Below are positions 5,876-18,760 of a DNA stretch of 64,000 nucleotides, piece by piece; position 1 is the first letter of the stretch; each line of letters opens with the position of its first letter. Below the pieces are notes generated by a model. It made no database searches, was not told the DNA's origin, and saw nothing but the letters and a program-made list of their open reading frames with translations. Location of the stretch: positions 1,736,001 to 1,800,000 of the forward strand of contig NZ_CP012623.1 of the NCBI RefSeq assembly GCF_001280305.1, given 5' to 3'. The translations under genes were made by a program, and so were the position numbers. This stretch comes from Hymenobacter sp. DG25A (GTDB lineage Bacteria > Bacteroidota > Bacteroidia > Cytophagales > Hymenobacteraceae).

Positions 5876-6961
5876 TTATGACGGCATACCGGTTGCTTTC
5901 AGCAAGCCCTGCGAAACGGCCATCCAGTTGCACATCTGATACAGCAGACGGGCACCCACGTTGCCATCCCAGTCAGTTTCGCCAGGCGCTACCTCGTTCA
6001 GGTCGCAGCCAATGATGGTGCGGCCGGAGCGCACAATGGTCCGGATCAGGTACAGGGCTTCCTCAAACTCCAGGCCGCCGGGCACGGGCGTACCGGTGCC
6101 GGGGCACAGCTTGGGGTCGAGACCATCAATATCAAAGCTCAGATACACCTTCTGGGGCAGCTGGGCAATAATTTTGCCGCACATCTTCTTCCAGGATTTT
6201 TTGGCGTACATCTCGTCGCGCAGGAAACGATGATGGAACATCACCACCCGGCCCCCGGACTGCGCAATCAGGTCGGCTTCCTGCTGACACAGGTCGCGGA
6301 TGCCTACCTGCACCAGCTTCTTCACCTGGGGCAGGTTCAGGGCATTGTACATGATGGAGGCGTGCGAGTACTCAAAGCCTTCGTAGGCGGGGCGCAGGTC
6401 GCAGTGGGCATCAATCTGCAGAATACCGAACTCCTCGTGGCGCTCGGCCAGCGCGTGCATGTAGCCCAGTGGGGTGCTGTGGTCGCCGCCAAGCACAACT
6501 ACAGCTTTGCCCGCATCCAGATAAGCGCCGGTTTTTTGCTTGAGCCAGTCCCGCAGTTCCTTGCCTTTGGCGGTTACCTTGGTTTGCACACTGGCGTGCC
6601 TGGCGGCGTCGGCGGCCGGCTGGCCTTCTTCCAGCCAGCTGATGTAATCGGCAGCCTGCACCCGAAGCTCATTGCTTTGCTGCGCCCAAGAGGCATCTTC
6701 ATCCTCCATGGCAATGCCCAGACGCCAGGCGTCTGCTACGTCCAGATCATACAGATCCACCTGCATGGAGGCGTCGCGGATGGCGGCCGGGCCCTGCGCC
6801 GTACCCGCCTGGTACGATACCGTAACTTCCCACGGCACGGGCACTATTACCAGTTGGGCTTCTTCCAGGGTGAAGGGCAAACCAAAAATGCCGCCGGAAG
6901 CATCACCTACCCCATTGGGGTCGAAGCTGGCCAGTTTTTTATCGAGAGCGGATGTAGACAT
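5876..6961 (-). CDS. Agmatinase-family ureohydrolase
   Basis: Binuclear-manganese amidinohydrolase of the arginase/agmatinase/formimidoylglutamase superfamily, 361 residues. All metal ligands are visible: His161 in GGDHS, Asp184/His186/Asp188 in DAHCD, and Asp277/Asp279 in SFDIDGLDP. An N-terminal part of about 130 residues with a charged insert precedes the core, as in the Bacteroidota agmatinase family proteins. Agmatine to putrescine plus urea is the likely reaction, but substrate cannot be settled from sequence; formimidoylglutamate is an alternative, and hutH lies far away at 52.8 kb. It starts 39 bp after cheC on the same strand and may be the last gene of the chemotaxis transcript. Confidence 0.88.
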   Translation of the reverse strand: MSTSALDKKLASFDPNGVGDASGGIFGLPFTLEEAQLVIVPVPWEVTVSYQAGTAQGPAAIRDASMQVDLYDLDVADAWRLGIAMEDEDASWAQQSNELRVQAADYISWLEEGQPAADAARHASVQTKVTAKGKELRDWLKQKTGAYLDAGKAVVVLGGDHSTPLGYMHALAERHEEFGILQIDAHCDLRPAYEGFEYSHASIMYNALNLPQVKKLVQVGIRDLCQQEADLIAQSGGRVVMFHHRFLRDEMYAKKSWKKMCGKIIAQLPQKVYLSFDIDGLDPKLCPGTGTPVPGGLEFEEALYLIRTIVRSGRTIIGCDLNEVAPGETDWDGNVGARLLYQMCNWMAVSQGLLKATGMPS

Positions 6962-7000: not shown

Positions 7001-7639
7001 TTACTCCGTCGGGTTGGGGCCGCCCAGGAAATTATAAGTGCGAATGATTTCGAGAATCTTGACGAAGGTGTCGCGGTCAAAAAACAGCATCAGGGGCAGC
7101 TCTACGGAGTTATTCTGGTCCGAGAACTGCGTAATAACGGAGAAGATGAGCGGCTTCCAGCCCGGATTGTGAATAATGAGGCCTTGCAGGGAATTGGCAA
7201 TATCCCCGCTGGGGGAAACCGGCGGCGCGCCGTACACATTGGCCTTCAGAATATTGGCCAGCTGCGTTACCAGTGCCCCCGTGATGATGTTACTCATCTC
7301 CAGCAACAACGATTCCTGCATGGCATCCACCTCCACTGATTCCGGAACATCCAGACGAAGACAGACTTTTGACAGCCGCTGCACATGCTGCCCCGAGAAG
7401 AGCATCAGCGTAGTACCATGAAAATCCCCCCGAATGTCGGACTGGATGATTTTATGCGTGTTCTCATACTTGCGTACCAGATCCACCATACTCTCCAACG
7501 GCATCAAATCCAGGTTGGGCACCTCCAAGAGTACTTTCTCCTGGGCAATTACGGCAAACGAATCTGCCGCCCGAGCCAGGCCGATGTTGAGAATCTCACG
7601 GATGATATCTCGCTCCAGTTCCGTCATGTGCAACTCCAT
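7001..7639 (-). CDS. cheC: CheC-family CheY-P phosphatase
   Basis: Chemotaxis phosphatase of the CheC/CheX/FliY family, 212 residues. It has two copies of the active-site helix pattern [DS]xxxExxN: DIIREILNIG with Glu15/Asn18 and SLLLEMSNII with Glu114/Asn117, so both centres look intact. Family members dephosphorylate CheY-P. In Bacillus CheC partners CheD, but no cheD is in this window. The start at 7639 is preferred; Met5 is an alternative. It follows cheA by 59 bp. Confidence 0.85.
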   Translation of the reverse strand: MELHMTELERDIIREILNIGLARAADSFAVIAQEKVLLEVPNLDLMPLESMVDLVRKYENTHKIIQSDIRGDFHGTTLMLFSGQHVQRLSKVCLRLDVPESVEVDAMQESLLLEMSNIITGALVTQLANILKANVYGAPPVSPSGDIANSLQGLIIHNPGWKPLIFSVITQFSDQNNSVELPLMLFFDRDTFVKILEIIRTYNFLGGPNPTE

Positions 7640-7698: not shown

Positions 7699-9327
7699 TT
7701 AAGGTCGTTTAGCCAGGAATACCCGCGTTAGTGCCGGAACATCTAACACAAGGCATACCTGCCCGTTACCCAGCAGCGTAACTCCCCCAAACAAATCAAT
7801 TGTATCGAGGGGTTGCGTCATGGGTTTAATCACAATGTTTTGCTGGCGCAAAAACCGGTCGACGATAAGGCCCAGCCGGCGGTTGTTGTAGTTGACGATG
7901 ATGATATCCTGCCGTCCGATGAGCTCTTCCGTATCGGCGGCGGGCAGGTTTTCATCCCCCCCATGCAGCAGTTGGCGCAGGCTCACTACCGGCACGTTTT
8001 CGCCCTGCACCTCGGCCAGCAGCATCCCTCCCACTACGTGGAGTTCCTCAGGCCAGAGCGATACAACGGAGTCAATGTGCATGAGCAGCAGCGCGTAGCT
8101 GCGTTCTTCCAGTTCAAAGAGCAAAGCTCCTTTCACGGCAATGGAAGTAGGCAGCACCAGGGTAAACGTGGTGCCTTTGCCCAACTCAGAATCGACGCGC
8201 AATTGCCCGCCCATCGAGTCGATGGCCAGTTTAACCACATCTAGGCCCACGCCCCGGCCGGATATTTCGGTTACTTCCTCGGCCATGGAAAAACCGGGCT
8301 CAAAAAGCAGCGCGCGCACCGCCGGGGCACTTAGAGAGGCCGCGGTCTGGGCGTTAATCAACCCGCGCGAAACGGCTTTGCTTCTTACTTTTTCTACATC
8401 AATACCCCGGCCGTCGTCGCGCACCTGAATCAGCACGTCGTCGCGCTCAATGGCCGCTTCCAAGGCTAGCTCGCCCATGGGGGGCTTACCGGCCTTGGTG
8501 CGCTCCTCCGGCGTTTCAATGCCGTGCCCAATGGCGTTGCGCACCAGGTGCAGCAAGGAGTCCGTGATGATCTGCAGAATGTTGCGGTCAATCTGGATGT
8601 CCTGGCCGCTGATGCTCAGGTTGACTTCCTTATGCTCGGTGGTAGCCACGTCGCGCACCACGCGGGGAAACTTGTTGAACAGCGAGCCGACGTTTACCAG
8701 GCGGGCATCCATTACGCTGTACTGCAGTTCATCGGCGATGCGGAACAGGTGCGCCGCTGCCGATTGCAGGGCCGGATTACCAATTTCCTGCCCCAGCGTA
8801 AAGATTCGGTCCCGGTCAATAATCAGCTCCCCTACCAGGTTCAGCAGGTGATCAAGCTTTTTTATCTGGATATAGACGAGGTCAGACAGCTCCAGCTTGC
8901 GGGAGTCATCAACGGCTATGTCTTCATCGGTGAGGATAGGCGCCTCCCCGCGTACCAGGCGGTCCAGGTTATCCAGCAGCGTCTCGGCATTGGGCAGTTC
9001 TTGGTTTTCGCCGATAGCGCGAACCATGGCCCCAATGGTATCAATGCCGGAGAACAATACGTTGGTGATAGAGCCGGAAAACTCCTTTTCCCTGCTCCGG
9101 ATCAACCCAAAGATGGTTTCCATCTGGTGAGCCACTTCCCCCAGATCCATAAAGCCCATGGCGCGGGCATTGGCCTTTAGGTTGTGCATCAGGCGGAACA
9201 ACTCGTTCAGCGCCTGTTCGCTTTGCGGGTTTTTCTCCAGCTCACTGATGTGGCGGCTCATGGCGTCGTAGTATTCGAGCGCCTCAGCCATAAATATTTC
9301 GCGGTACTCCTGCTCGCGTGACCTCAT
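7699..9327 (-). CDS. cheA: Chemotaxis histidine kinase CheA (no P2 domain)
   Basis: Receptor-coupled kinase of 542 residues. P1 HPt domain about 1-125 with His48 in RLMHNLKANARAMGF, where the usual HxxKG is HNLKA. P3 dimerisation about 145-205 (LLNLVGELIIDRDRI). P4 ATPase about 206-390 with N-box HLVRNAIGHGIE and G-boxes VRDDGRGID and GRGVGLDVV. P5 CheW-like about 395-540. The P1-P3 linker is too short for a CheY-binding P2 domain, so P1 must meet its receiver directly. The start ATG overlaps the cheB stop as ATGA (9324-9327), showing translational coupling. Confidence 0.93.
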   Translation of the reverse strand: MRSREQEYREIFMAEALEYYDAMSRHISELEKNPQSEQALNELFRLMHNLKANARAMGFMDLGEVAHQMETIFGLIRSREKEFSGSITNVLFSGIDTIGAMVRAIGENQELPNAETLLDNLDRLVRGEAPILTDEDIAVDDSRKLELSDLVYIQIKKLDHLLNLVGELIIDRDRIFTLGQEIGNPALQSAAAHLFRIADELQYSVMDARLVNVGSLFNKFPRVVRDVATTEHKEVNLSISGQDIQIDRNILQIITDSLLHLVRNAIGHGIETPEERTKAGKPPMGELALEAAIERDDVLIQVRDDGRGIDVEKVRSKAVSRGLINAQTAASLSAPAVRALLFEPGFSMAEEVTEISGRGVGLDVVKLAIDSMGGQLRVDSELGKGTTFTLVLPTSIAVKGALLFELEERSYALLLMHIDSVVSLWPEELHVVGGMLLAEVQGENVPVVSLRQLLHGGDENLPAADTEELIGRQDIIIVNYNNRRLGLIVDRFLRQQNIVIKPMTQPLDTIDLFGGVTLLGNGQVCLVLDVPALTRVFLAKRP

Positions 9328-10400
9328 AAGTTGGTGGCCTGAGATAAGGAATACCGGCTAGGACGCGGCGTAACTACCGGCGACAAATAGCGGCTGATAA
9401 AGTCGGAAATTTCGTGTACCGGCAGCACCTGCGAGGCAAATCCACCCTGGATTACAGCCTTCGGCATACTGAAAACAGCAGCCGAGGATTCATCCTGCGC
9501 GATAACCATACCGCCATGCTGCTGCACCGTTTGCGCCCCCAACGCTCCGTCGCGCCCCAGCCCACTCAGGACTACGCCTATTACCTTGCGCCCCATGGCG
9601 CGGGCCGCCGAGGACATGAGCATATCAACGGAAGGAACATCGGAAGTAGTGGCTGAATCGGCGGCAAACTCCATTTGCCAGGCCAGCCAGGGGCCGCCCG
9701 TTACCGGCTGCACCACCATATTGTGCCCACCGGGCGCCACCAGAATCCGGCCGGCTTCCAGCCGGGAGCCGGCGCAGGCAGCGTCAACGGGCAAGGGAGA
9801 AATGCGACGCAGGCGCTCTACAAACGAGTTTGTGAACTGCGCCGGCAGGTGCACAGCTACCAGGACAGCTTGCTTCAGATTGGGTGTGAGGCCTCGTACT
9901 ACTCTCTCTACGGCGCTGGCGCCCCCTGTGGAGCCTCCCAGAACAATGATTCCCCGCGGGGGAGCAAAGATGGAAGTGGCCGTTTTCCCGAGGCGGGATA
10001 TTAGCTGTTTGGGGCGTATCATCTGCACTTTGCGCCGTAGCTCTGAGTGCTGCGCAGCCGCCAGCGGGTGGTCTTCGGGCAGCAACGGAGTCAGATAATC
10101 ATACACGCCCCAGCGGGCTGCTTCCCGCATCAGACTAGGCAATGGAACCGCATTGGCATACAGCAGCACCGGTACGGGGCTGTGGGTGGCCAGCTGGTCC
10201 AGACCCGGCAAAACAGATTCCCCGGCAATAACCAGATCCGGCCGGAGGGCGCGGGCTTTCCGCACCAGATCCTCGCCACTCAGCGCTGAGCCTACTACCC
10301 GCACGTGGGGGGTAGCAGCCAACAGCTTTGCCAACGCCAGCCGGGTAAGGCCAGGAAGTTCGCCGAGCAGAATAGCTAAAGGTTCGGTGATACGGGACAC
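9324..10400 (-). CDS. cheB: CheB-type methylesterase with degenerate receiver
   Basis: Protein-glutamate methylesterase/deamidase for MCPs, 358 residues from GTG 10400; a longer frame to 10532 would overlap cheY by 71 bp and reads as low-complexity sequence, so I reject it. The C-terminal catalytic domain is intact: Ser157 in GGSTGG, His184 in VAVHLPAQFTNSF, Asp284 in SGLGRDGA. The N-terminal receiver keeps its fold-like pattern but has lost its acidic pair (ILLGELPG, Gly13/Glu14) and its phospho-acceptor Asp (DLVIAGESVLPG, Gly60/Glu61), so CheA cannot activate it in the usual way. The stop overlaps cheA's start by 4 bp. Confidence 0.88.
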   Translation of the reverse strand: MSRITEPLAILLGELPGLTRLALAKLLAATPHVRVVGSALSGEDLVRKARALRPDLVIAGESVLPGLDQLATHSPVPVLLYANAVPLPSLMREAARWGVYDYLTPLLPEDHPLAAAQHSELRRKVQMIRPKQLISRLGKTATSIFAPPRGIIVLGGSTGGASAVERVVRGLTPNLKQAVLVAVHLPAQFTNSFVERLRRISPLPVDAACAGSRLEAGRILVAPGGHNMVVQPVTGGPWLAWQMEFAADSATTSDVPSVDMLMSSAARAMGRKVIGVVLSGLGRDGALGAQTVQQHGGMVIAQDESSAAVFSMPKAVIQGGFASQVLPVHEISDFISRYLSPVVTPRPSRYSLSQATNL

Positions 10401-10461
10401 GAAAAAAAGAGAGGAATAAGCGAAAGCTGCGCCACGGCTATGCGTGGCCAGAAGAAAAAGA

Positions 10462-10923
10462 CTACGCCTGGGGTGTAGACTCAGACGAAGTATCGGATGC
10501 GGCGGTGTCCGTAGCGTCGGATGCCGGAGCATCGGCGGCAGTTTCAGCTTCGCTATCAGCCTGCTGCAGCATGGTGCCTACAATTTCCAGTACTTTTTCC
10601 TCGGAGAAGGGCTTCACAATGTAAGCCACGGCGCCGCTTTCCAGCGCTTCGTTTACAATCACCTCCTGGCCCACGGCGCTGCACATTACAATGCGCACGT
10701 TGGGCTGCTCCTGCCGAATGCCTTTCAGCACATCCAGACCGGTATTATCTGGCAGGATAACGTCCAGCGTGATGAGGTCAGGGCGGGTGGCGGCGGCCAT
10801 TTCCAGCGCTTGCTGGCCGTTGGCTGCCTCGCCTACCACGTCGTAACCGGCGTCGGTAAGCATATTCTTAAGCATCGTGCGCATGTAGAACGAGTCGTCC
10901 ACGATGAGGATGCGGTTTTTCAT
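10462..10923 (-). CDS. cheY: CheY-like response regulator with acidic tail
   Basis: Stand-alone receiver. Residues 1-120 carry all five key positions: Asp9/Asp10 (ILIVDDS), phospho-acceptor Asp54 (LITLDVILP), Ser82 and Lys104 (YIVKPFS). An extra tail of about 30 residues rich in Ala, Asp, Glu, Ser and Thr follows, which is unusual for CheY and probably disordered. It is the only phosphorylatable receiver in this operon, so the likely target of CheA and CheC. cheW ends 51 bp upstream and cheB starts 61 bp downstream. Confidence 0.92.
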   Translation of the reverse strand: MKNRILIVDDSFYMRTMLKNMLTDAGYDVVGEAANGQQALEMAAATRPDLITLDVILPDNTGLDVLKGIRQEQPNVRIVMCSAVGQEVIVNEALESGAVAYIVKPFSEEKVLEIVGTMLQQADSEAETAADAPASDATDTAASDTSSESTPQA

Positions 10924-10974
10924 ATAGTTGGGGTAAGTCGGTCAGAAAATGAAATGGGCGGAAAACGTGTAGGC

Positions 10975-11514
10975 CTAGGTACGGCTGCGTGCGGTAGAAG
11001 ATTCCGCCCGGGGGTTTAATTGCATGATTTCCGATGGGGTCAGCAGCTTCATCATGTCCAGTACAATAATGATGCGGTTGTCGAATCGGGCAATTCCCTC
11101 GATATACTTCTCCTGAATGTTGCTGTCCTGCAGGAACTCCGGGGCCCGCTCTATGGCAGAAACCGGCAAGGAAAGCGGCTGGGGCACCTCGCGCACCACA
11201 ATACCAATGGTATAGTCGTGGGCTTCGATGGCCAGTGTGTAGGTAATACCCGTGCTGAGGTCACCTTTGCCCCGGCGCAGGCCAAAACGCTCTTCCAGGT
11301 CAATAATAGCAATGATGTCGCCGCGCAGATTGGCAATGCCTTTCACGAAGGCCGGGGTTTTGGGCATGCGCGCAATATCCGGGGTAATGGTTACCTCCTT
11401 CACCTGCTCAATGCGTACGCCGTACTCCTCGGTGCCTAGGCGGAAAACAATCAGCTGCACCAGTGCTTCCTGCACAATGGGCTTCCGTTCGCCGCTGCTT
11501 TCTGTTTGAACCAT
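10975..11514 (-). CDS. cheW: CheW coupling protein
   Basis: Adaptor joining receptors to CheA, 179 residues, one CheW/SH3-like domain (about residues 18-160). Typical segments are LIVFRLGTEEYGVRIEQVKE, IANLRGDIIAIIDLEERFGL and GIARFDNRIIIVLDMMKLL. A short polar N-terminus and an Arg/Ser tail flank it. It sits directly after the MCP gene with a hairpin in the 61-bp gap. Confidence 0.94.
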   Translation of the reverse strand: MVQTESSGERKPIVQEALVQLIVFRLGTEEYGVRIEQVKEVTITPDIARMPKTPAFVKGIANLRGDIIAIIDLEERFGLRRGKGDLSTGITYTLAIEAHDYTIGIVVREVPQPLSLPVSAIERAPEFLQDSNIQEKYIEGIARFDNRIIIVLDMMKLLTPSEIMQLNPRAESSTARSRT

Positions 11515-11531
11515 AGCTGAAAACAGGAAAA

Positions 11532-11566
11532 CCTACGCTGCCGCCGTATGAGAGGCGCAGCGTAGG
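11532..11566 (-). other. Hairpin in the MCP-cheW intercistronic gap
   Basis: CCTACGCTGC (11532-11541) pairs perfectly with GCAGCGTAGG (11557-11566). There is no T-tract after it on the minus strand, so it looks more like an mRNA-processing or 3'-stabilising structure between the very long MCP cistron and cheW than a terminator. Confidence 0.55.
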
Positions 11567-11575
11567 AATCCGGGT

Positions 11576-14500
11576 TTATTTAGACGTTGATTTTTTGCCT
11601 TTGCCTGCCTGAGCGGGAGCTGCTTTGGCCTCCTTGGCCGCTGCTGCTTTTGCCTTGCCATTATTGGAAGGCTCGGCTTTTACCACGGCCTGCCGTGGAG
11701 CTGCGGGGGCCGGTGCCTCCGGCCGGGGCCGGGCGGCTGTCCGCTCCCGCTTCACCGTGGCCGGAGCAGGTACCGGAGCCGTAGCGCGCGCCATGTGGCG
11801 TGTGCGCACCGGAGCTTCTACTTTGGCAACGGGCTGTTCAATCCGACGAACGGTGCGGCGCAGTACCGGGGCGGGCTCAGGCTCCACGTACTCAATCAGC
11901 TGGAAGGCCGACAGACCTACCTGCAGGTCATCCGCAATGTCGGTCAGCTTCTGGCTGGAAGCCGTGAGCTCCTGCATGGAAGACGACAGCTGCTTGGCAG
12001 TGCCAGCCACTTGCTGCGTACCAGATGCCGTTTGCTCGGCAATGGCTACTACTTCCTCTACGTACTTTACTACGTCGCCAATCGAGGTTTTCTGAATCTC
12101 GGTAGCTGTGAGAATGTCGCGGGAGGTGCGCAGCGTTTCACCGCTGGAAGTGGCAATGTTCTTAAAGGCGCTGGATGCTTCAAACGTAGCGTTCTTGCCT
12201 TTCAGTACCCGGCCTTCCATGGTTGAAATAGCGGTTGCGGCAGAGATGGTGTCTTTCTTAACATCCTCTACCAGCGTGGCAATTTCGTTGGCCGATTTGC
12301 GGGAGCCTTCGGCCAGTTTCCGGATTTCTTCGGCTACTACGGCAAAACCACGGCCGGCTTCCCCGGCACGGGCTGCTTCGATGGCCGCGTTCAGTGCCAG
12401 CAGGTTGGTTTGCGAGGCAATGTCCGTGATAACACCCAGCGACTTGCTGATTTCTCCCGAACGGGTACTCAGTACTTCAATGGTACGGGCCGTTTGCGCA
12501 GCCGCGTTGGAGATTTCCTCCATGTTCTTTACCACCTCGGCCACCGTTTTCAGACCCAGCTGCGAGGTTTGCTCACCCAGGATAGCCGATTTGTTTACCA
12601 CGTCAGCTTTGCCGGCCGTTTCCTTGGTGGCCTGCATGATTTCTTCAATCAGCTTAAAGGCTTGGTCTGTTTTCAATGCCTGGTTCTGAGCACCTTCTGC
12701 CATCTGCTGCATGGCCAAAGCCACATCAACCGTAACCCGGCTCATTTCCTGACCTTTACCGGCCATTTCTTCCGAGGAAGTTCCTACTACCAGCGAGGAA
12801 TCGTTGATTTCGCCCAGCAGCTCGTTCAGGTTTTCAACGGCAAGGTTAAGAGCGTCGGACATGGCCAGGATGTCGCCGGCGGTGGGTACTTCCACGCGCT
12901 GGGTCAGGTCACCTTCCGAGATGGCTCGCACCACGCGCGATACTTCCAGTACCGGTGAGGCAATGGATTCCAGCAGGGCGTTGAGCGTGTCTACCAGTTC
13001 TTTCCAGCTGCCCGATACGCCGCCTACCGTAGCCCGTTCTGTCAGCTTGCCTTCCACACCGGCCACTTTGGCCACGCGGCTAACTTCTACTGCCAGTCGG
13101 TTCAGGTCATCCACCATTCGGTTAATGGTGTCGGCTAGCTCGGCCACTTCGCCTTTGGCTTCCAGAGTCAGCTTTTGGGTCAAGTCACCTTTGGATACCG
13201 CCGTTACTACTTTCACAATGCCCCGTACCTGAGTGGTCAGGTTGGAGGCCATGGTGTTTACGTTGTCGGTGAGGTCTTTCCAAACGCCGCTTACGCTTGG
13301 CACATTGGCCTGGCCACCGAGGCGGCCTTCCGTTCCTACTTCCTGCGCCACACGGGTTACCTCGCCGGCGAAGATGTTCAGGGAGTCCACCATTCGGTTG
13401 ATGTTGTCTTTCAGGTCGAGCAGCTCGCCTTTAACATCTACCGAAACTTTCTGGCTTAGGTCGCCGCGGGCTACCGCGGTGGTTACGTTGGCAATGTCCC
13501 GTACCTGAGAGGTAAGCGAGGCGGCCATGGTATTTACGTTGTCGGTGAGGTCTTTCCAGGTACCGCGTACGTTAGGTACTACGGCCTGGCCACCCAGTTT
13601 ACCCTCGGTGCCTACTTCGCGGGCCACGCGGGTTACTTCGTCACCGAACGTGTTCAGGGAGTCCACCATCTGGTTGAGGTTTTCCTTCAACTGGAGCAGC
13701 TCGCCTTTTACATCTACTTTGATTTTCTGCGACAAGTCACCGCGGGCTACCGCGGTTGCCACGTTAGCAATGTCCCGCACCTGAGAGGTCAGGTTGCTGG
13801 CCATTGTATTTACGTTGTCGGTCAAGTCCTTCCAAGTACCCGAAACGTTTGGCACGTTGGCCTGACCGCCCAGAATACCCTCGGTACCTACTTCCCTTGC
13901 CACACGAGTTACCTCGCCAGCGAAGATGTTCAGGGAGTCCACCATCTGGTTCAGAATGTTCTTCAGATCCAGCAGCTCGCCTTTTACATCTACCGTGATT
14001 TTCTGGGTCAGGTCACCCTTTGCTACCGCGGTTGCTACGTTAGCAATGTCTCGTACCTGAGAGGTCAGGTTGGAGGCCATCGTGTTTACGTTGTCCGTCA
14101 GCTCTTTCCAGGTACCACCTACGCGGGGCACGTTGGCCTGGCCGCCCAGCTTTCCTTCCGTACCAACTTCCCTTGCCACACGAGTTACCTCGCCGGCGAA
14201 GATGTTCAGGGAGTCCACCATCTGGTTCAAGATATTCTTGAGCTCCAGGATTTCGCCCTTCACGTTCACCGTCATCTTCTGGCTCAAGTCACCGCGGGCT
14301 ACGGCCGTTGCCACGTTGGCAATGTCCCGTACCTGGCTCGTTAAGTTCGAGGCCATGTAGTTTACATTGTCTGTCAGCTCCTTCCAAACCCCGGCCACGT
14401 TGGGCACCGATGCCTGACCACCCAGTTTTCCTTCGGCCCCTACTTCCAGTGCCACACGAGTTACCTCGCCGGCGAAGAGGTTGAGCGAGTCCACCATTTG

Positions 14501-15937
14501 GTTCAGGTTCTGCTTCAGTTGCAGAAGCTCGCCCTTTACATCTACCGTAATCTTCTGGCTTAGGTCGCCGCGGGCTACCGCAGTAGCTACGTTGGCAATA
14601 TCTCGCACCTGAGAAGTCAGGTTGCTGGCCATGTTATTTACGTTGTCCGTCAGCTCTTTCCATACGCCGCCTACATTCGGTACCACGGCCTGACCACCAA
14701 GGCGTCCTTCCGTACCTACCTCCTGCGCCACGCGGGTTACTTCGCCGGCAAACAGGTTGAGCGAGTCCACCATCTGGTTCAGGTTCTGCTTCAGTTGGAG
14801 AAGCTCCCCTTTAACGTCAACGGTGATTTTCTGCGACAAGTCGCCTTTTGCTACGGCGGTTGCTACGTTGGCAATGTCCCGCACCTGAGAAGTCAGGTTG
14901 CTGGCCATGTTGTTTACGTTGTCGGTGAGGTCCTTCCAAACCCCGCCTACGTTTGGCACGCTGGCCTGACCGCCCAGTTTACCCTCAGTACCTACCTCCT
15001 GTGCCACACGAGTTACCTCGCCGGCGAAGAGGTTGAGCGAGTCCACCATTTGGTTCAGGTTCTGCTTCAGTTGCAGCAGTTCCCCCTTTACATCTACCGT
15101 AATCTTCTGGGTGAGGTCACCCTTTGCCACGGCGGTTGCTACGTTGGCAATATCTCGTACCTGAGAGGTCAGGTTCGAGGCCATGTTGTTTACGTTGTCT
15201 GTCAGCTCTTTCCAGATACCACCCACGTTTGGTACGGAGGCCTGGCCACCCAGCTTTCCTTCCGTACCTACTTCCTGCGCCACCCGGGTTACTTCCCCCG
15301 CGAATACGTTCAGGTTGTCGATGGTTTTGTTGATGGTTTCGGCCATCACCTTGAAGTCACCCGACACTGGAATCTGGAAGGACTCATCCAGATTCCCCTT
15401 GCTGATGTTCTTCAGTACTTTGCCTACTTCCAATACCGGCACGGCAATGCTATCCACCAGGCCGTTGATATTGTTGATCATGTCGCGCCAGAAACCGGCG
15501 GCATTCTCAGCCGAGGCCCGCGCCTTCAGGTTGCCTTCCACCCCGGCCACCTTGGAAATGCGCGATACCTCGCCTCCTACCCCGCCAATCATCTCCACCA
15601 TGGAGTTGTAGGCTTCGGCAATTTCGGCGAAGATGTCGTCGTTCTGCTTGGTCAGGCGTACCGATACGTCCCCTTTCTTAAAGGCATCGAGGGCGTAGAG
15701 CACGCGGTTCAGCTGCTCGTTAACGTACTCCGGATCCTGCTCATCGGTAATGCCGCGGGCAACCCCGCGCTTGCGGGTACTGTTGCTCCCAGGGGTACTG
15801 AGCTGAACAATAGGTTCGGAGGAAGCTGGGGCACCACCCCGACGGGTGGTGACAGCTGCCGTTGCCTGGTCAGCGGCGGCAGGCTGCGCGGGGCTTGCCG
15901 TAGTAGAAGAGGAACGTGAATTTTTGCCGGATGCCAT
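11576..15937 (-). CDS. Soluble poly-HAMP methyl-accepting chemotaxis protein
   Basis: Cytoplasmic chemoreceptor of 1453 residues without membrane segment or signal peptide. ATG 15937 is chosen because the longer frame (16030) would run through the -7 element at 16019-16026. Order: Ser/Ala/Pro-rich linker (1-75); one HAMP (about 78-117); ten consecutive 92-residue units (118-1037), each made of two HAMP-like modules ([16 protein letters not shown]... and [16 protein letters not shown]...); MCP signalling domain (about 1050-1330) with the hairpin tip [18 protein letters not shown]; Pro/Ala/Lys-rich tail. [10 protein letters not shown] fits the consensus methylation site. The tail lacks a CheR-tethering NWETF pentapeptide. 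The repeat is the type known from fungal group III (Nik1/Os1) histidine kinases. No separate sensor domain is visible, so the array itself or a partner must sense the input. Confidence 0.93.
12827..15310 (-). repeat. Nine in-frame 276-bp tandem repeats inside the MCP gene
   Basis: Units of exactly 92 codons begin at 15310, 15034, 14758, 14482, 14206, 13930, 13654, 13378 and 13102. Units 1-8 are near-identical in protein; the ninth (and a tenth, upstream at 15586-15311) is diverged. There is no length variation between units. Confidence 0.93.
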
Positions 15938-16297
15938 AAAGGAGCGGGTGGTAGCGAGCCAGATAAAAATAGGCGATGCAAAGGTTACTGTGCGGCTAAA
16001 AGCTAAGCGCAGTACTGACAAAGTTAACAACTAAGAAGTAATACTCTACTGCTGATTACTGGCGGCTCCTTTCTTTTTCTTTTCTGCTGATCTGTTTTAA
16101 AGGCTTCTGCCCTATTTATCAGCGTTTAAGAACCTAGTACCCCGTACTGGTGTATTGCTATCACTCCTGTTTTATATAGAGCTTTAAAAATAAGACCGGA
16201 ATATTCCAGCATCTTTGCGGCAAAATTCAACTCCTTTGCGCTGCTTCTCGTTTCTCTACCGAAACACGCCCAGCATCCCGCCCTGCTTTTACATCAT
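15938..16297. other. Divergent intergenic region between MCP operon and topA
   Basis: 360 bp without a gene, AT-richer than its flanks. It holds the MCP-operon -7 element (16019-16026, minus) and, for topA, a near-consensus CATCTTTG at 16210-16217 (plus). I see no other structure. Confidence 0.7.
16019..16026 (-). promoter_or_regulatory. -7 element of the chemotaxis operon
   Basis: Minus-strand TAACTTTG matches TAnnTTTG; it predicts a leader of about 75 nt before ATG 15937. No clear TTG is placed 20 bp upstream. Confidence 0.4.
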
Positions 16298-18760
16298 ATG
16301 GTTAAGAACCTAGTCATAGTAGAGTCTCCTGCCAAAGCCAAAACCATTGAAGGGTACTTGGGCAAGGACTTTATCGTCAAATCCAGCTTTGGGCACGTCC
16401 GCGACCTGCCCAAGGACAATAATGCTATTGATATTGCCAACGGCTTCAAACCCACCTACGTAGTCTCACCTGATAAGCGGGAAATCATCTCCCAGCTGAA
16501 AAAGCTAGCCAAGGAAGCCGAAATGGTGTGGTTAGCAAGTGACGATGACCGGGAGGGCGAAGCCATTTCCTGGCATCTTTCCGAGACGCTGAACCTGACG
16601 GAGGCCAAGACCAAGCGCATTGTTTTCCGTGAAATCACGAAAAATGCCATTCTCAACGCCATTGCCAATCCCCGGGAAATCGACCTGAATCTGGTAAATG
16701 CCCAGCAGGCCCGCCGCGTGCTGGACCGCCTGGTAGGCTTTGAGTTGAGCCCGGTGCTCTGGAAAAAGGTGAAAGCCGGCCTTTCAGCGGGCCGTGTGCA
16801 AAGTGTGGCCGTGCGACTGGTGGTGGAGCGGGAACGGGAAATCAACCAGTTCAAAACCTCTTCGGCCTACCGCGTAGTAGCCAAATTTGATGCCGGCCAG
16901 GGCGCCGTATTGGAGGCCGAGCTGCCCACCCGCTACAAAACCCGCGAAGAGGCCGAGGCCTTCCTGGCGCGCTGCGTTGGCGCCGCCTACCGCATTGAGA
17001 ACCTGGAGAAGAAGCCGGGCAAACGCACACCGGCGCCACCGTTTACCACTTCTACCCTGCAGCAGGAAGCCTCGCGCAAGCTGGGCTTCTCGGTAGCGCA
17101 GACCATGAGCGTGGCCCAGAAGCTGTATGAAGCAGGTAGAATCAGCTACATGCGTACCGACTCTCTGAACCTCTCGCAGGACGCCATAGCAGCGGCCAAG
17201 GAGGAGATTACGCGGGCCTACGGTACTGAATATGCGCACACCCGTCAGTTTAAGACTAAATCCGCCTCCGCGCAGGAAGCCCACGAAGCCATTCGCCCCA
17301 CGGATTTTGCGCTGGCCAAGGCCGGCTCCGATTCGGCGGAGCAGCGCCTGTATGATTTGATCCGCAAACGGGCTATGGCTTCTCAGATGGCCGATGCCAC
17401 CGTGGAGCGTACCGTAGCCACCATTGGCATCAGCACGCAGCCGGGCGTTACGCTCACGGCTACCGGCGAAGTCATTACGTTTGAGGGCTTTCTGAAGGCG
17501 TACAGTGAGTCGAAGGACGAGGATGAGCAGGATGGCGAGTCGTCGTTTTCACGCGGTTTGCCGCCAATTTCAGTGGGCCAGGTGCTGCCGCTGCAGCAGC
17601 TGCGCGCTACGGAGCGCTACGCTTCGCCGACTGCCCGCTACACGGAAGCTTCGCTGGTGAAAAAACTGGAGGAAATGGGCATTGGTCGTCCTTCTACCTA
17701 TGCCCCTACTATCAGCACCATTCAGAAGCGCGGCTACGTGGAAAAAGACACCCGGGAGGGCAAGGAGCGCAAGTTCCATGTGCTGACGCTGGATGGCGAC
17801 ACGGTAAAAACCGAAGTGAAAACGGAAACCTACGGGGCCGACAAAGCCAAGCTGTTCCCCACGGATACGGCCATGGTGGTAAACGACTTTCTGGTGGAGC
17901 ATTTCCCCGTGATTGTAGACTATAAGTTTACGGCCAAGGTGGAAGACGAATTCGACCAGATTGCCAACGGCCATGAGCAGTGGGAAAAGATGATTGCCGG
18001 GTTCTATGGCACTTTCCACGAAACCGTGGAGCGCGGCCAGGATATTGAGCGCAGCACGCTGGGCTCTACCCGCGTTATCGGCCTGCACCCGGAAACCGGC
18101 CAGAAGCTGACGGCCCGCCTGGGCCGCTTTGGGCCTTACGTGCAGATTGAGCCCAAAGAAGGTGCACCGGAGGGTGAAAAGGCCGTGTACGCCAGCCTGC
18201 GCAAAGGCCAGTTTATCGAGAATATCACGCTGGAAGATGCCTTGGAGCTGTTTAAGCTGCCGCGCAACGTGGGGCAGTTTGAGGACAAGGACATGACGGC
18301 CGCCCTCGGCCGCTTTGGTCCGTACATCCGCCACGACAGCAAGTTCTACTCCCTCACTAAGGAGCAGGATCCGCACACCATCACTGCCGACGAAGCCGTA
18401 GCTCTCATTGAAAACAAGCGCAAAACCGACGCGGAACGCCTGATTAAGGAGTTCCCCGGCCGCGAAGACGTGCAGGTTCTCAATGGCCGCTTCGGTCCCT
18501 ACATTGTGGTGGGCAAGAAAAATGTAAAGATTCCGAAGGGCGAAGAGCCGGCGGATCTGACGCTGGAACGCTGCCTGGAGCTGGCAGAGGCTACCCCCGA
18601 CAAGCCCGCCAAAGGCGGCCGCTTTGCCAAGAAAGCCGCTCCGGCCGCCAGCGAAAAGACCGATACGCCGGTGAAAAAGGCCGCCGCCAAGAAACCCGCC
18701 GCTAAAAAGCCGGCGGCCAAAAAACCTGCCGCAACGAAAGCTGCTGGTAAGCCTAAGTAG
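16298..18760 (+). CDS. topA: DNA topoisomerase I
   Basis: Type IA topoisomerase that relaxes negative supercoils, 820 residues. TOPRIM domain at 1-145 with Glu9 (VESPAKAK) and acidic triad DDDREGE at 82-88. Catalytic Tyr284 lies in RISYMRTDS. The family core ends near 590. In place of zinc fingers it has TopoI C-terminal repeats with the signature GRFGPY (three copies near 605, 670 and 730), then a Lys/Ala/Pro-rich tail of repeated KKPAA units, likely DNA-binding. A palindromic repeat and terminator follow. Confidence 0.96.
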   Translation: MVKNLVIVESPAKAKTIEGYLGKDFIVKSSFGHVRDLPKDNNAIDIANGFKPTYVVSPDKREIISQLKKLAKEAEMVWLASDDDREGEAISWHLSETLNLTEAKTKRIVFREITKNAILNAIANPREIDLNLVNAQQARRVLDRLVGFELSPVLWKKVKAGLSAGRVQSVAVRLVVEREREINQFKTSSAYRVVAKFDAGQGAVLEAELPTRYKTREEAEAFLARCVGAAYRIENLEKKPGKRTPAPPFTTSTLQQEASRKLGFSVAQTMSVAQKLYEAGRISYMRTDSLNLSQDAIAAAKEEITRAYGTEYAHTRQFKTKSASAQEAHEAIRPTDFALAKAGSDSAEQRLYDLIRKRAMASQMADATVERTVATIGISTQPGVTLTATGEVITFEGFLKAYSESKDEDEQDGESSFSRGLPPISVGQVLPLQQLRATERYASPTARYTEASLVKKLEEMGIGRPSTYAPTISTIQKRGYVEKDTREGKERKFHVLTLDGDTVKTEVKTETYGADKAKLFPTDTAMVVNDFLVEHFPVIVDYKFTAKVEDEFDQIANGHEQWEKMIAGFYGTFHETVERGQDIERSTLGSTRVIGLHPETGQKLTARLGRFGPYVQIEPKEGAPEGEKAVYASLRKGQFIENITLEDALELFKLPRNVGQFEDKDMTAALGRFGPYIRHDSKFYSLTKEQDPHTITADEAVALIENKRKTDAERLIKEFPGREDVQVLNGRFGPYIVVGKKNVKIPKGEEPADLTLERCLELAEATPDKPAKGGRFAKKAAPAASEKTDTPVKKAAAKKPAAKKPAAKKPAATKAAGKPK

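Follow-up and report, generated by a model that had tools for sequence, protein, structure and literature searches.

We describe a chemoreceptor gene of Hymenobacter sp. DG25A, found in a 64,000-nucleotide stretch of its chromosome (the window), in which the signaling hairpin of a methyl-accepting chemotaxis protein (MCP) is preceded by an array of 21 HAMP-like modules. The protein is an MCP by its signaling domain and a poly-HAMP protein by its input, and this combination is real, conserved, and unusual. Across the Hymenobacteraceae, the fusion of the array to an MCP hairpin is the standard architecture, and the receptor appears to be the sole chemoreceptor of its family. Its architecture, its conservation, its single-MCP status, its gene neighborhood, and the presence of PAS domains at the place of the array in four sister receptors can all be read from the sequences. 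The last of these makes plausible what a first-pass annotation of the window had proposed, namely, that sensing may be done by the array itself.

Receptor architecture and the identity of its modules

The first-pass annotation had read the protein as a single HAMP (H1) followed by ten 92-residue double-HAMP (di-HAMP) units, a count that is supported by the open reading frame (ORF), by the spacing, by profile-profile comparison, and by solved structures. The units are each exactly 92 residues long and start at residues 120, 212, and so on up to 948, which with the preceding H1 makes 1 + 20 = 21 modules. A Pfam scan of the whole receptor gave PF00672 in 9 stretches and PF18947 (HAMP_2) in 10, with the matches falling on the second halves of the units; scanned as a fragment, the second half of unit 1 reached 60.1 bits for HAMP_2 against a cutoff of 24.3. 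Domain counting by profile search thus recovers the modules only in part, since neither the one first half scanned alone (no HAMP match in Pfam) nor H1 alone (17.1 bits, under the cutoff of 25) was called. In profile-profile comparison, the first halves align with the second halves over 41 of 48 columns (probability, 95.5; E value, 1.4e-8), and H1 also aligns with the second halves (hhalign; probability, 89.6; E value, 1.9e-6); H1 against the first halves gave a probability of only 1.1, and a stretch of the MCP coil, used as a control, gave 0.1 in both tests. Moreover, PDB chains 9trk and 9trj, from solved poly-HAMP kinases, match the whole receptor (E values, 4e-84 and 3e-40, respectively) as well as the first halves (2e-57 and 1e-29). 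With these comparisons, the description as 21 HAMP-like modules holds, about half of them being divergent.

The MCP signaling domain that had been placed after the array is equally well supported: MCPsignal (PF00015) scores 131 bits on the whole protein against a cutoff of 34.6, and residues 1046 to 1331 match residues 9 to 294 of 2ch7, the two lengths being equal. About 153 residues, counted from the receptor sequence, flank the hairpin tip on each side, in agreement with 2ch7, which we take to be TM1143, a member of the 44H class. The receptor was described as soluble and as having no other sensor domain, and neither point needs revision. No transmembrane segment is indicated in the ATG-initiated form (maximum 19-residue hydropathy, 1.35), and the N-terminal 78 residues, scanned alone for a sensor domain, gave subthreshold matches only (best Pfam match, E value of 0.091 and 12.6 bits with a cutoff of 26.3; one phrog match, E value of 0.077). 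There is no PAS domain among the Pfam matches of the receptor and no HisKA, HATPase, or receiver domain either, and the NCBIfam model for Aer2 reaches 295 bits against a cutoff of 1,200. A TTG start at position 16030, and with it a transmembrane N terminus, is unlikely: a start motif was recognized in 75 of 80 orthologous loci, and 14 of these 75 show an in-frame stop 1 to 4 residues upstream of it. In 31 of the 80 family loci, none of them from Hymenobacter, the protein starts with MALGKN. A basic patch ahead of H1 was sought with a sequence pattern, which had 0 matches and supports nothing. Pfam matches of the whole array to ATG17_like, DUF3829, and SpoIIID, which exceeded the cutoffs without any single passing stretch, were set aside as noise. 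Those of the SpoIIID type may be a by-product of the HAMP repeat; a study of the Ask kinases of Myxococcus took similar partial helix-turn-helix matches as possible DNA-binding domains (PMC7643160).

The units differ in their degree of similarity. Units 2 to 8 form a core with mutual identities of 77 to 96% in protein and 72 to 85% in DNA; unit 9 shares 67 to 71% identity with this core, and units 1 and 10 share just 26 to 41%. A repeat created by the assembly or by recent duplication is ruled out by the level of DNA identity in the core, together with the finding of the same architecture in independent assemblies. In the first halves, 11 residues are invariant throughout all ten units.

Orthologs, sister receptors, and the place of the array

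From the genome collection, in which at least 570 of 599 stretches encoded a relative, we kept 80 orthologous loci; the closest named relative among the matches listed is Hymenobacter sp. BT730 (98%). The receptor could be read by sequence patterns in 72 of the 80 loci, five of the other eight running off the locus at its 5′ end and three having no match to the tip. Measured from the first unit to the hairpin tip, the spacing is in all 72 an integral multiple of 92 residues, most often 10 units (44 orthologs) or 11 (16 orthologs), with 14 units in five, 12 in three, and 8, 9, 13, and 15 in one ortholog each. When six orthologs were compared unit by unit with the DG25A receptor, the first, penultimate, and last units proved to be conserved (Table 1), and the core units were alike among themselves and variable in number, which together confine the gain and loss of whole units to the core. 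Growth or loss by whole di-HAMP steps would be expected if the phase of the helices must be kept.

The DG25A genome, searched as a single contig of 3.78 Mb, has one match to PF00015, and so does each of 150 Hymenobacteraceae genomes (at least 90% complete). A junction query of 494 residues, consisting of units 9 and 10 and the hairpin, likewise found a single match per genome in all 150, at 85 to 100% identity; 149 of these matches begin at query residue 1 and the remaining one (G096), in a short frame, begins at residue 29. Nine of the 150 matches sit in frames of fewer than 1,100 residues, where the whole array was not seen. The fusion, whose frequency had been in question, is therefore no oddity of one strain; orthologs are many, and it is usual in the family. 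None was found described, and the titles and starts of abstracts listed in a literature search that covered few subscription journals included no publication on a poly-HAMP MCP in Hymenobacteraceae, so that the absence of such work is only weakly indicated. Among 242 genomes sampled from the order, PF00015 matched in 92 (over the cutoff in 88), and the junction query matched at an E value of 1e-60 or better in 81, comprising 41 from the family and 40 others. Two of these 40 matches begin at the first query residue (G257, 80% identity; G334, 73%), and the remaining 38 begin at residue 35 or later, with identities of 36 to 50%. A phylum-wide scan, in which three candidates were scored per genome and rarer cases could be missed, found matches at 1e-10 in at least 125 of 392 genomes. 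Those listed from outside the genus either cover the array part only (59 to 73%, in frames of 1,887 to 2,233 residues, the size of hybrid kinases) or are alignments at 29 to 39%.

We also compared the che clusters of six members of the order (L118 to L123), covering four of the 38 receptors that match from residue 35 or later. In all six, the MCP gene lies beside cheW, cheY, and cheA on one strand; cheC is present in L118, L119, L120, and L121, and cheB is present in L121, L122, and L123. Two of the clusters encode array receptors, namely, L118 (from G334), with 12 units and a remainder of 0, and L120 (from G257), on the minus strand at about positions 8800 to 12800, where one in-frame stop in the array may reflect a pseudogene, a sequence error, or a split gene. 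The receptors of the other four (L119, L121, L122, and L123) have 13, 3, 4, and 3 PAS_3 stretches, respectively, together with one HAMP_2 match and the hairpin. In these PAS-type receptors, a related HAMP stretch precedes the hairpin (compare unit 10), and three of the four start with MALG-N, like the 31 family loci mentioned above. Given these starts and the same kind of hairpin, the ends of the receptors look shared and the middle differs, being a PAS block in one type and a HAMP array in the other. The array thus stands at the position of a sensor, since PAS domains occupy the same place in the four sister receptors, and it is this comparison of positions that lends plausibility to sensing by the array.

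The che cluster, adaptation, and output

A CheA-coupled setting had been proposed for the receptor, and its gene indeed adjoins cheW-cheY-cheB-cheA-cheC (Table 1). The CheC-like protein scores 74 bits with the NCBIfam model for CheC, under the cutoff of 250. The N-terminal region of CheB looks receiver-like by eye, but Pfam calls none there, and this region may be degenerate; in CheA, Pfam calls no domain between Hpt and the dimerization domain, the expected place of P2. Downstream of the cluster, an agmatinase-like gene (positions 5876 to 6961; name read from the sequence) is found in 77 of the 80 loci.

Table 1. Positions in the window of the receptor gene, its parts, and neighboring genes
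Feature	Positions	Strand	Remarks
Poly-HAMP chemoreceptor gene	11576..15937	minus	1453 aa, ATG start at 15937
N-terminal tail, residues 1-73	15719..15937	minus	low complexity, MASGK-type start; subthreshold matches only
H1, first HAMP, residues 74-119 (about)	15581..15718	minus	Pfam 17.1 bits and hhalign
Unit 1, N-cap di-HAMP, residues 120-211	15305..15580	minus	92-100% identity, six orthologs compared
Units 2-8, core di-HAMP repeats of 92 aa, residues 212-855	13373..15304	minus	core number differs among orthologs
Unit 9, penultimate di-HAMP, residues 856-947	13097..13372	minus	84-100% identity, six orthologs compared
Unit 10, C-cap di-HAMP adjoining MCP hairpin, residues 948-1039	12821..13096	minus	81-100% identity, six orthologs compared
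MCP signaling hairpin, residues 1040-1349, tip E1193	11891..12820	minus	MCPsignal and 2ch7 match
Basic C-terminal tail, residues 1350-1453	11576..11890	minus	net charge about +15, isoelectric point (pI) 11.4
cheW	10975..11514	minus	Pfam CheW 101 bits; 79/80 orthologous loci
cheY, single receiver domain	10462..10923	minus	Pfam Response_reg 107 bits; 80/80 loci
cheB, start codon uncertain	9324..10532	minus	Pfam CheB_methylest 178 bits; 50/80 loci
cheA (Hpt, dimerization, ATPase, and CheW-like domains)	7699..9327	minus	Pfam; 80/80 loci
cheC-like phosphatase	7001..7639	minus	PF04509 33.9 bits, cutoff 22; 80/80 loci
topA, divergent neighbor	16298..18760	plus	75/80 loci; marks the conserved locus; name read from sequence

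Judging from gene content, adaptation by methylation looks reduced or absent in Hymenobacter. Thirty of the 80 clusters are without cheB, and in these the cheY and cheA matches begin 471 to 600 bases apart, a spacing that leaves no room for a gene of about 1.1 kb. The sole CheR domain found in the genome lies elsewhere (L082, 556 to 3579), in a frame of ∼1,000 residues that forms a CheB-CheR-PAS-like hybrid (names of the non-CheR domains read from the sequence). CheR is matched in 70 of 80 family genomes, and its form differs between genera: in 24 Hymenobacter genomes, no CheR of dedicated size was found, with all matches lying in frames of at least 720 residues and 4 genomes having none, whereas 23 genomes of other family genera have frames of 276 to 285 residues, the size of a dedicated CheR, and a 24th has a weak match in a frame of 288 residues. 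Reduced methylation is harder to reconcile with the EE and QQ pairs of the putative adaptation region, which, like the hairpin tip, are invariant in 22 aligned sequences; the hybrid CheR proteins could act on these pairs.

On the output side, GldK, GldL, GldM, GldN, and GldJ_short exceed their NCBIfam cutoffs in the genome (the long GldJ model does not), and no PilB/PilT-like ATPase does, PF00437 reaching 19.7 bits against a cutoff of 24.9. An output through type IV pili is thereby disfavored, and the gliding machinery of the type IX secretion system (T9SS) would be the likely target of CheY. In published two-hybrid tests, PorX binds GldL through its CheY-like domain, provided that the phosphorylation site of the domain allows it (PMC10951265), and truncation of GldJ reverses T9SS rotation (PMC12239597). 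By analogy, the CheY of the receptor cluster might also act on GldL.

Readings of the array and comparison with known systems

Tentatively, and with slightly less than even confidence, we favor a methylation-poor cytoplasmic receptor whose array senses, alone or with the tails, and drives CheA-CheY and possibly T9SS gliding. We infer a soluble protein, presumably a dimeric rod, in which a short N-terminal tail, 21 HAMPs in series, the hairpin, and a disordered-looking basic tail follow one another and whose hairpin would engage CheA and CheW. At about 46 residues per HAMP, such a rod would have an estimated length of 70 to 75 nm. It would most likely be the array itself, with or without the tails, that reads the input, because its place is taken by PAS sensors in the sister receptors from related families. 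As a chain of two-state HAMP bundles, it could have its collective balance shifted by cytoplasmic osmolarity, crowding, or a small molecule; the shift would be relayed to CheA via the fixed last units, CheA would phosphorylate CheY, and CheC would take the phosphate off. A bolder version—in which the family swapped the PAS sensors of its sole receptor for a self-sensing HAMP chain that reads osmolarity or crowding, is anchored to the nucleoid by its tail, works largely free of CheR and CheB, and steers T9SS gliding via CheY-GldL—seems to us very unlikely.

HAMP domains generally serve as relays, which weighs against sensing by the array, and several further points weigh against the favored reading as well. 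The number of core units differs between species, which fits a spacer too, and the fact that only two genomes outside the family match from query residue 1 makes the swap to an array a rare event. In AlphaFold monomer models of residues 70 to 400 and 940 to 1453 (mean pLDDT, 38.4 and 55.6, respectively), that of the array, with its mean pLDDT of 38, is usable for helix-loop periodicity and the secondary-structure pattern only. The receptor has no known stimulus, binding site, or motility phenotype, and no link of the CheY of its cluster to GldL was found. Lastly, TcsC, a well-studied fungal relative, lost the osmotic response without its non-HAMP N terminus and kept the response to fludioxonil (PMC11253588), so that an array might not sense on its own.

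The basic C-terminal tail could point to a receptor resembling FrzCD of Myxococcus xanthus, in which the tail, together with the N-terminal tail, would bind the nucleoid with DNA as a scaffold, the array would mainly control oligomerization, and the signal would be assembly on DNA or an unknown partner. This tail spans 38 to 155 residues with a net charge of +3 to +18 and a pI of 10.1 to 12.0, and it is positive in all 79 loci surveyed (L073 was dropped from the 80 because its frame breaks off before the hairpin end). The last 52 residues carry at least +6 in 94% of these 79 receptors compared to 14% of 868 other, mechanically picked ORFs of the same loci, and of the 37 ORFs in the window, only topA comes before the receptor on this measure. 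Pfam finds no match near a cutoff in the C-terminal 104 residues alone, and in the AlphaFold model the tail has no helix and a pLDDT below 50 nearly throughout. Outside the family, the array receptor of G334 has a tail of +25 over 130 residues, compared to PAS-type tails of 1, 1, and 2 residues (the fourth, in L122, escaped the pattern and ends in FKLL). FrzCD itself binds DNA by its positively charged N terminus, and its di-HAMP restrains oligomerization (PMC12077210). However, this DNA-binding stretch is N-terminal, whereas the N-terminal tail of our receptor is weakly charged (−4 to +7 where the start could be picked) and the basic tail is at the other end; in the outgroup, the tail of the G257 receptor carries just +1 over 55 residues; and a tail rich in Lys, Ala, and Pro might attach to membrane or RNA instead, so that DNA binding is putative. 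We consider a FrzCD-like mode rather unlikely.

Exact multiples of one unit, variable in number and with a near-identical core, would also suit a ruler that sets the length of a cytosolic rod and holds CheA at a tuned constitutive level, with sensing done by another protein or by none. Receptor geometry does matter in cytoplasmic arrays, where two baseplates sandwich opposed receptors (PMC3964821). A mere spacer is nonetheless unlikely, as a simple coiled coil would do for that purpose, 11 first-half residues are kept in every unit, the caps are specialized, and the array is positioned where four sister receptors have PAS sensors. A further possibility is that the array is a receptor for a particular compound, a role already suggested for Nik1 of fungi and, with ambruticin, for the Ask kinases of myxobacteria. 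AskA and AskB, both poly-HAMP hybrid kinases, have been investigated in work on how Myxococcus responds to ambruticin VS-3 (PMC7643160), and in CaNik1, deletion of HAMPs alters output without a stimulus and HAMP pairs set fungicide sensitivity and response (PMC3848655). Yet at the time of that study no direct binding to NIK1 had been demonstrated (PMC7643160), fludioxonil reportedly does not act on the kinase directly (PMC6433957), and no compound is known for our receptor, which makes this explanation very improbable.

Whether poly-HAMP chains sense is an open question in fungi, where it is entangled with hybrid kinases and fungicide action. The DG25A receptor offers the same kind of array on a separable and well-understood CheA readout, in the sole MCP found, and the natural length variants of 8 to 15 units, along with the PAS-type sister receptors, make sensing by the array testable. 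The receptor is also relevant to the question of how T9SS gliders might steer and to chemosensing in which adaptation by methylation is minor or lacking.

Among the best 120 of 7,998 scored homologues, 31 have an MCP tip, 85 have a kinase H-box, and 4 have neither, two of these being fungal. The H-box homologues in this set are about 60 to 66% identical over the array, those for which an organism is named come from bacteria, and in all 85 the spacing seen most often is 92. Two named fungal homologues among the matches listed, the poly-HAMP kinases P0001 and P0002 from Coemansia, have 18 to 19 unit anchors and are 57% identical to the array of the receptor, and this level of identity suggests, as far as sequence comparison goes, gene transfer between bacteria and fungi. 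The first-pass annotation had assigned the units to the fungal Nik1 type; they are of a kind common to fungal group III kinases, but the fungal label is too narrow, since the bacterial hybrid kinases listed are closer than the fungal matches listed.

The serial 92-residue units are thus shared with the fungal group III kinases (Nik1/TcsC/Bos1) and with the bacterial poly-HAMP hybrid kinases (AskA/AskB; 9trk), which are likewise soluble and without a transmembrane region (PMC7643160). These proteins carry an attached kinase and receiver, whereas in our receptor the array leads to an MCP hairpin coupled to a separate CheA and CheW. FrzCD resembles the receptor as a cytoplasmic MCP of a surface-moving bacterium with HAMPs, a charged tail, and no obvious sensor domain (PMC12077210), but it has 2 HAMPs compared to 21, and it works with the CheR and CheB homologues FrzF and FrzG. 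Aer2 from Pseudomonas aeruginosa is also a soluble MCP with poly-HAMP segments, whose conformers set opposite outputs (PMC3570549); in contrast to our receptor, where no PAS domain was found, its 3 + 2 HAMPs flank a heme PAS sensor. The PAS-type MCPs of L119, L121, L122, and L123 agree with the receptor in the kind of gene cluster, in the kind of hairpin, and in the HAMP stretch before it, and they differ in having PAS sensors where the DG25A receptor has its array and, in three of the four, in their tails of 1 or 2 residues.

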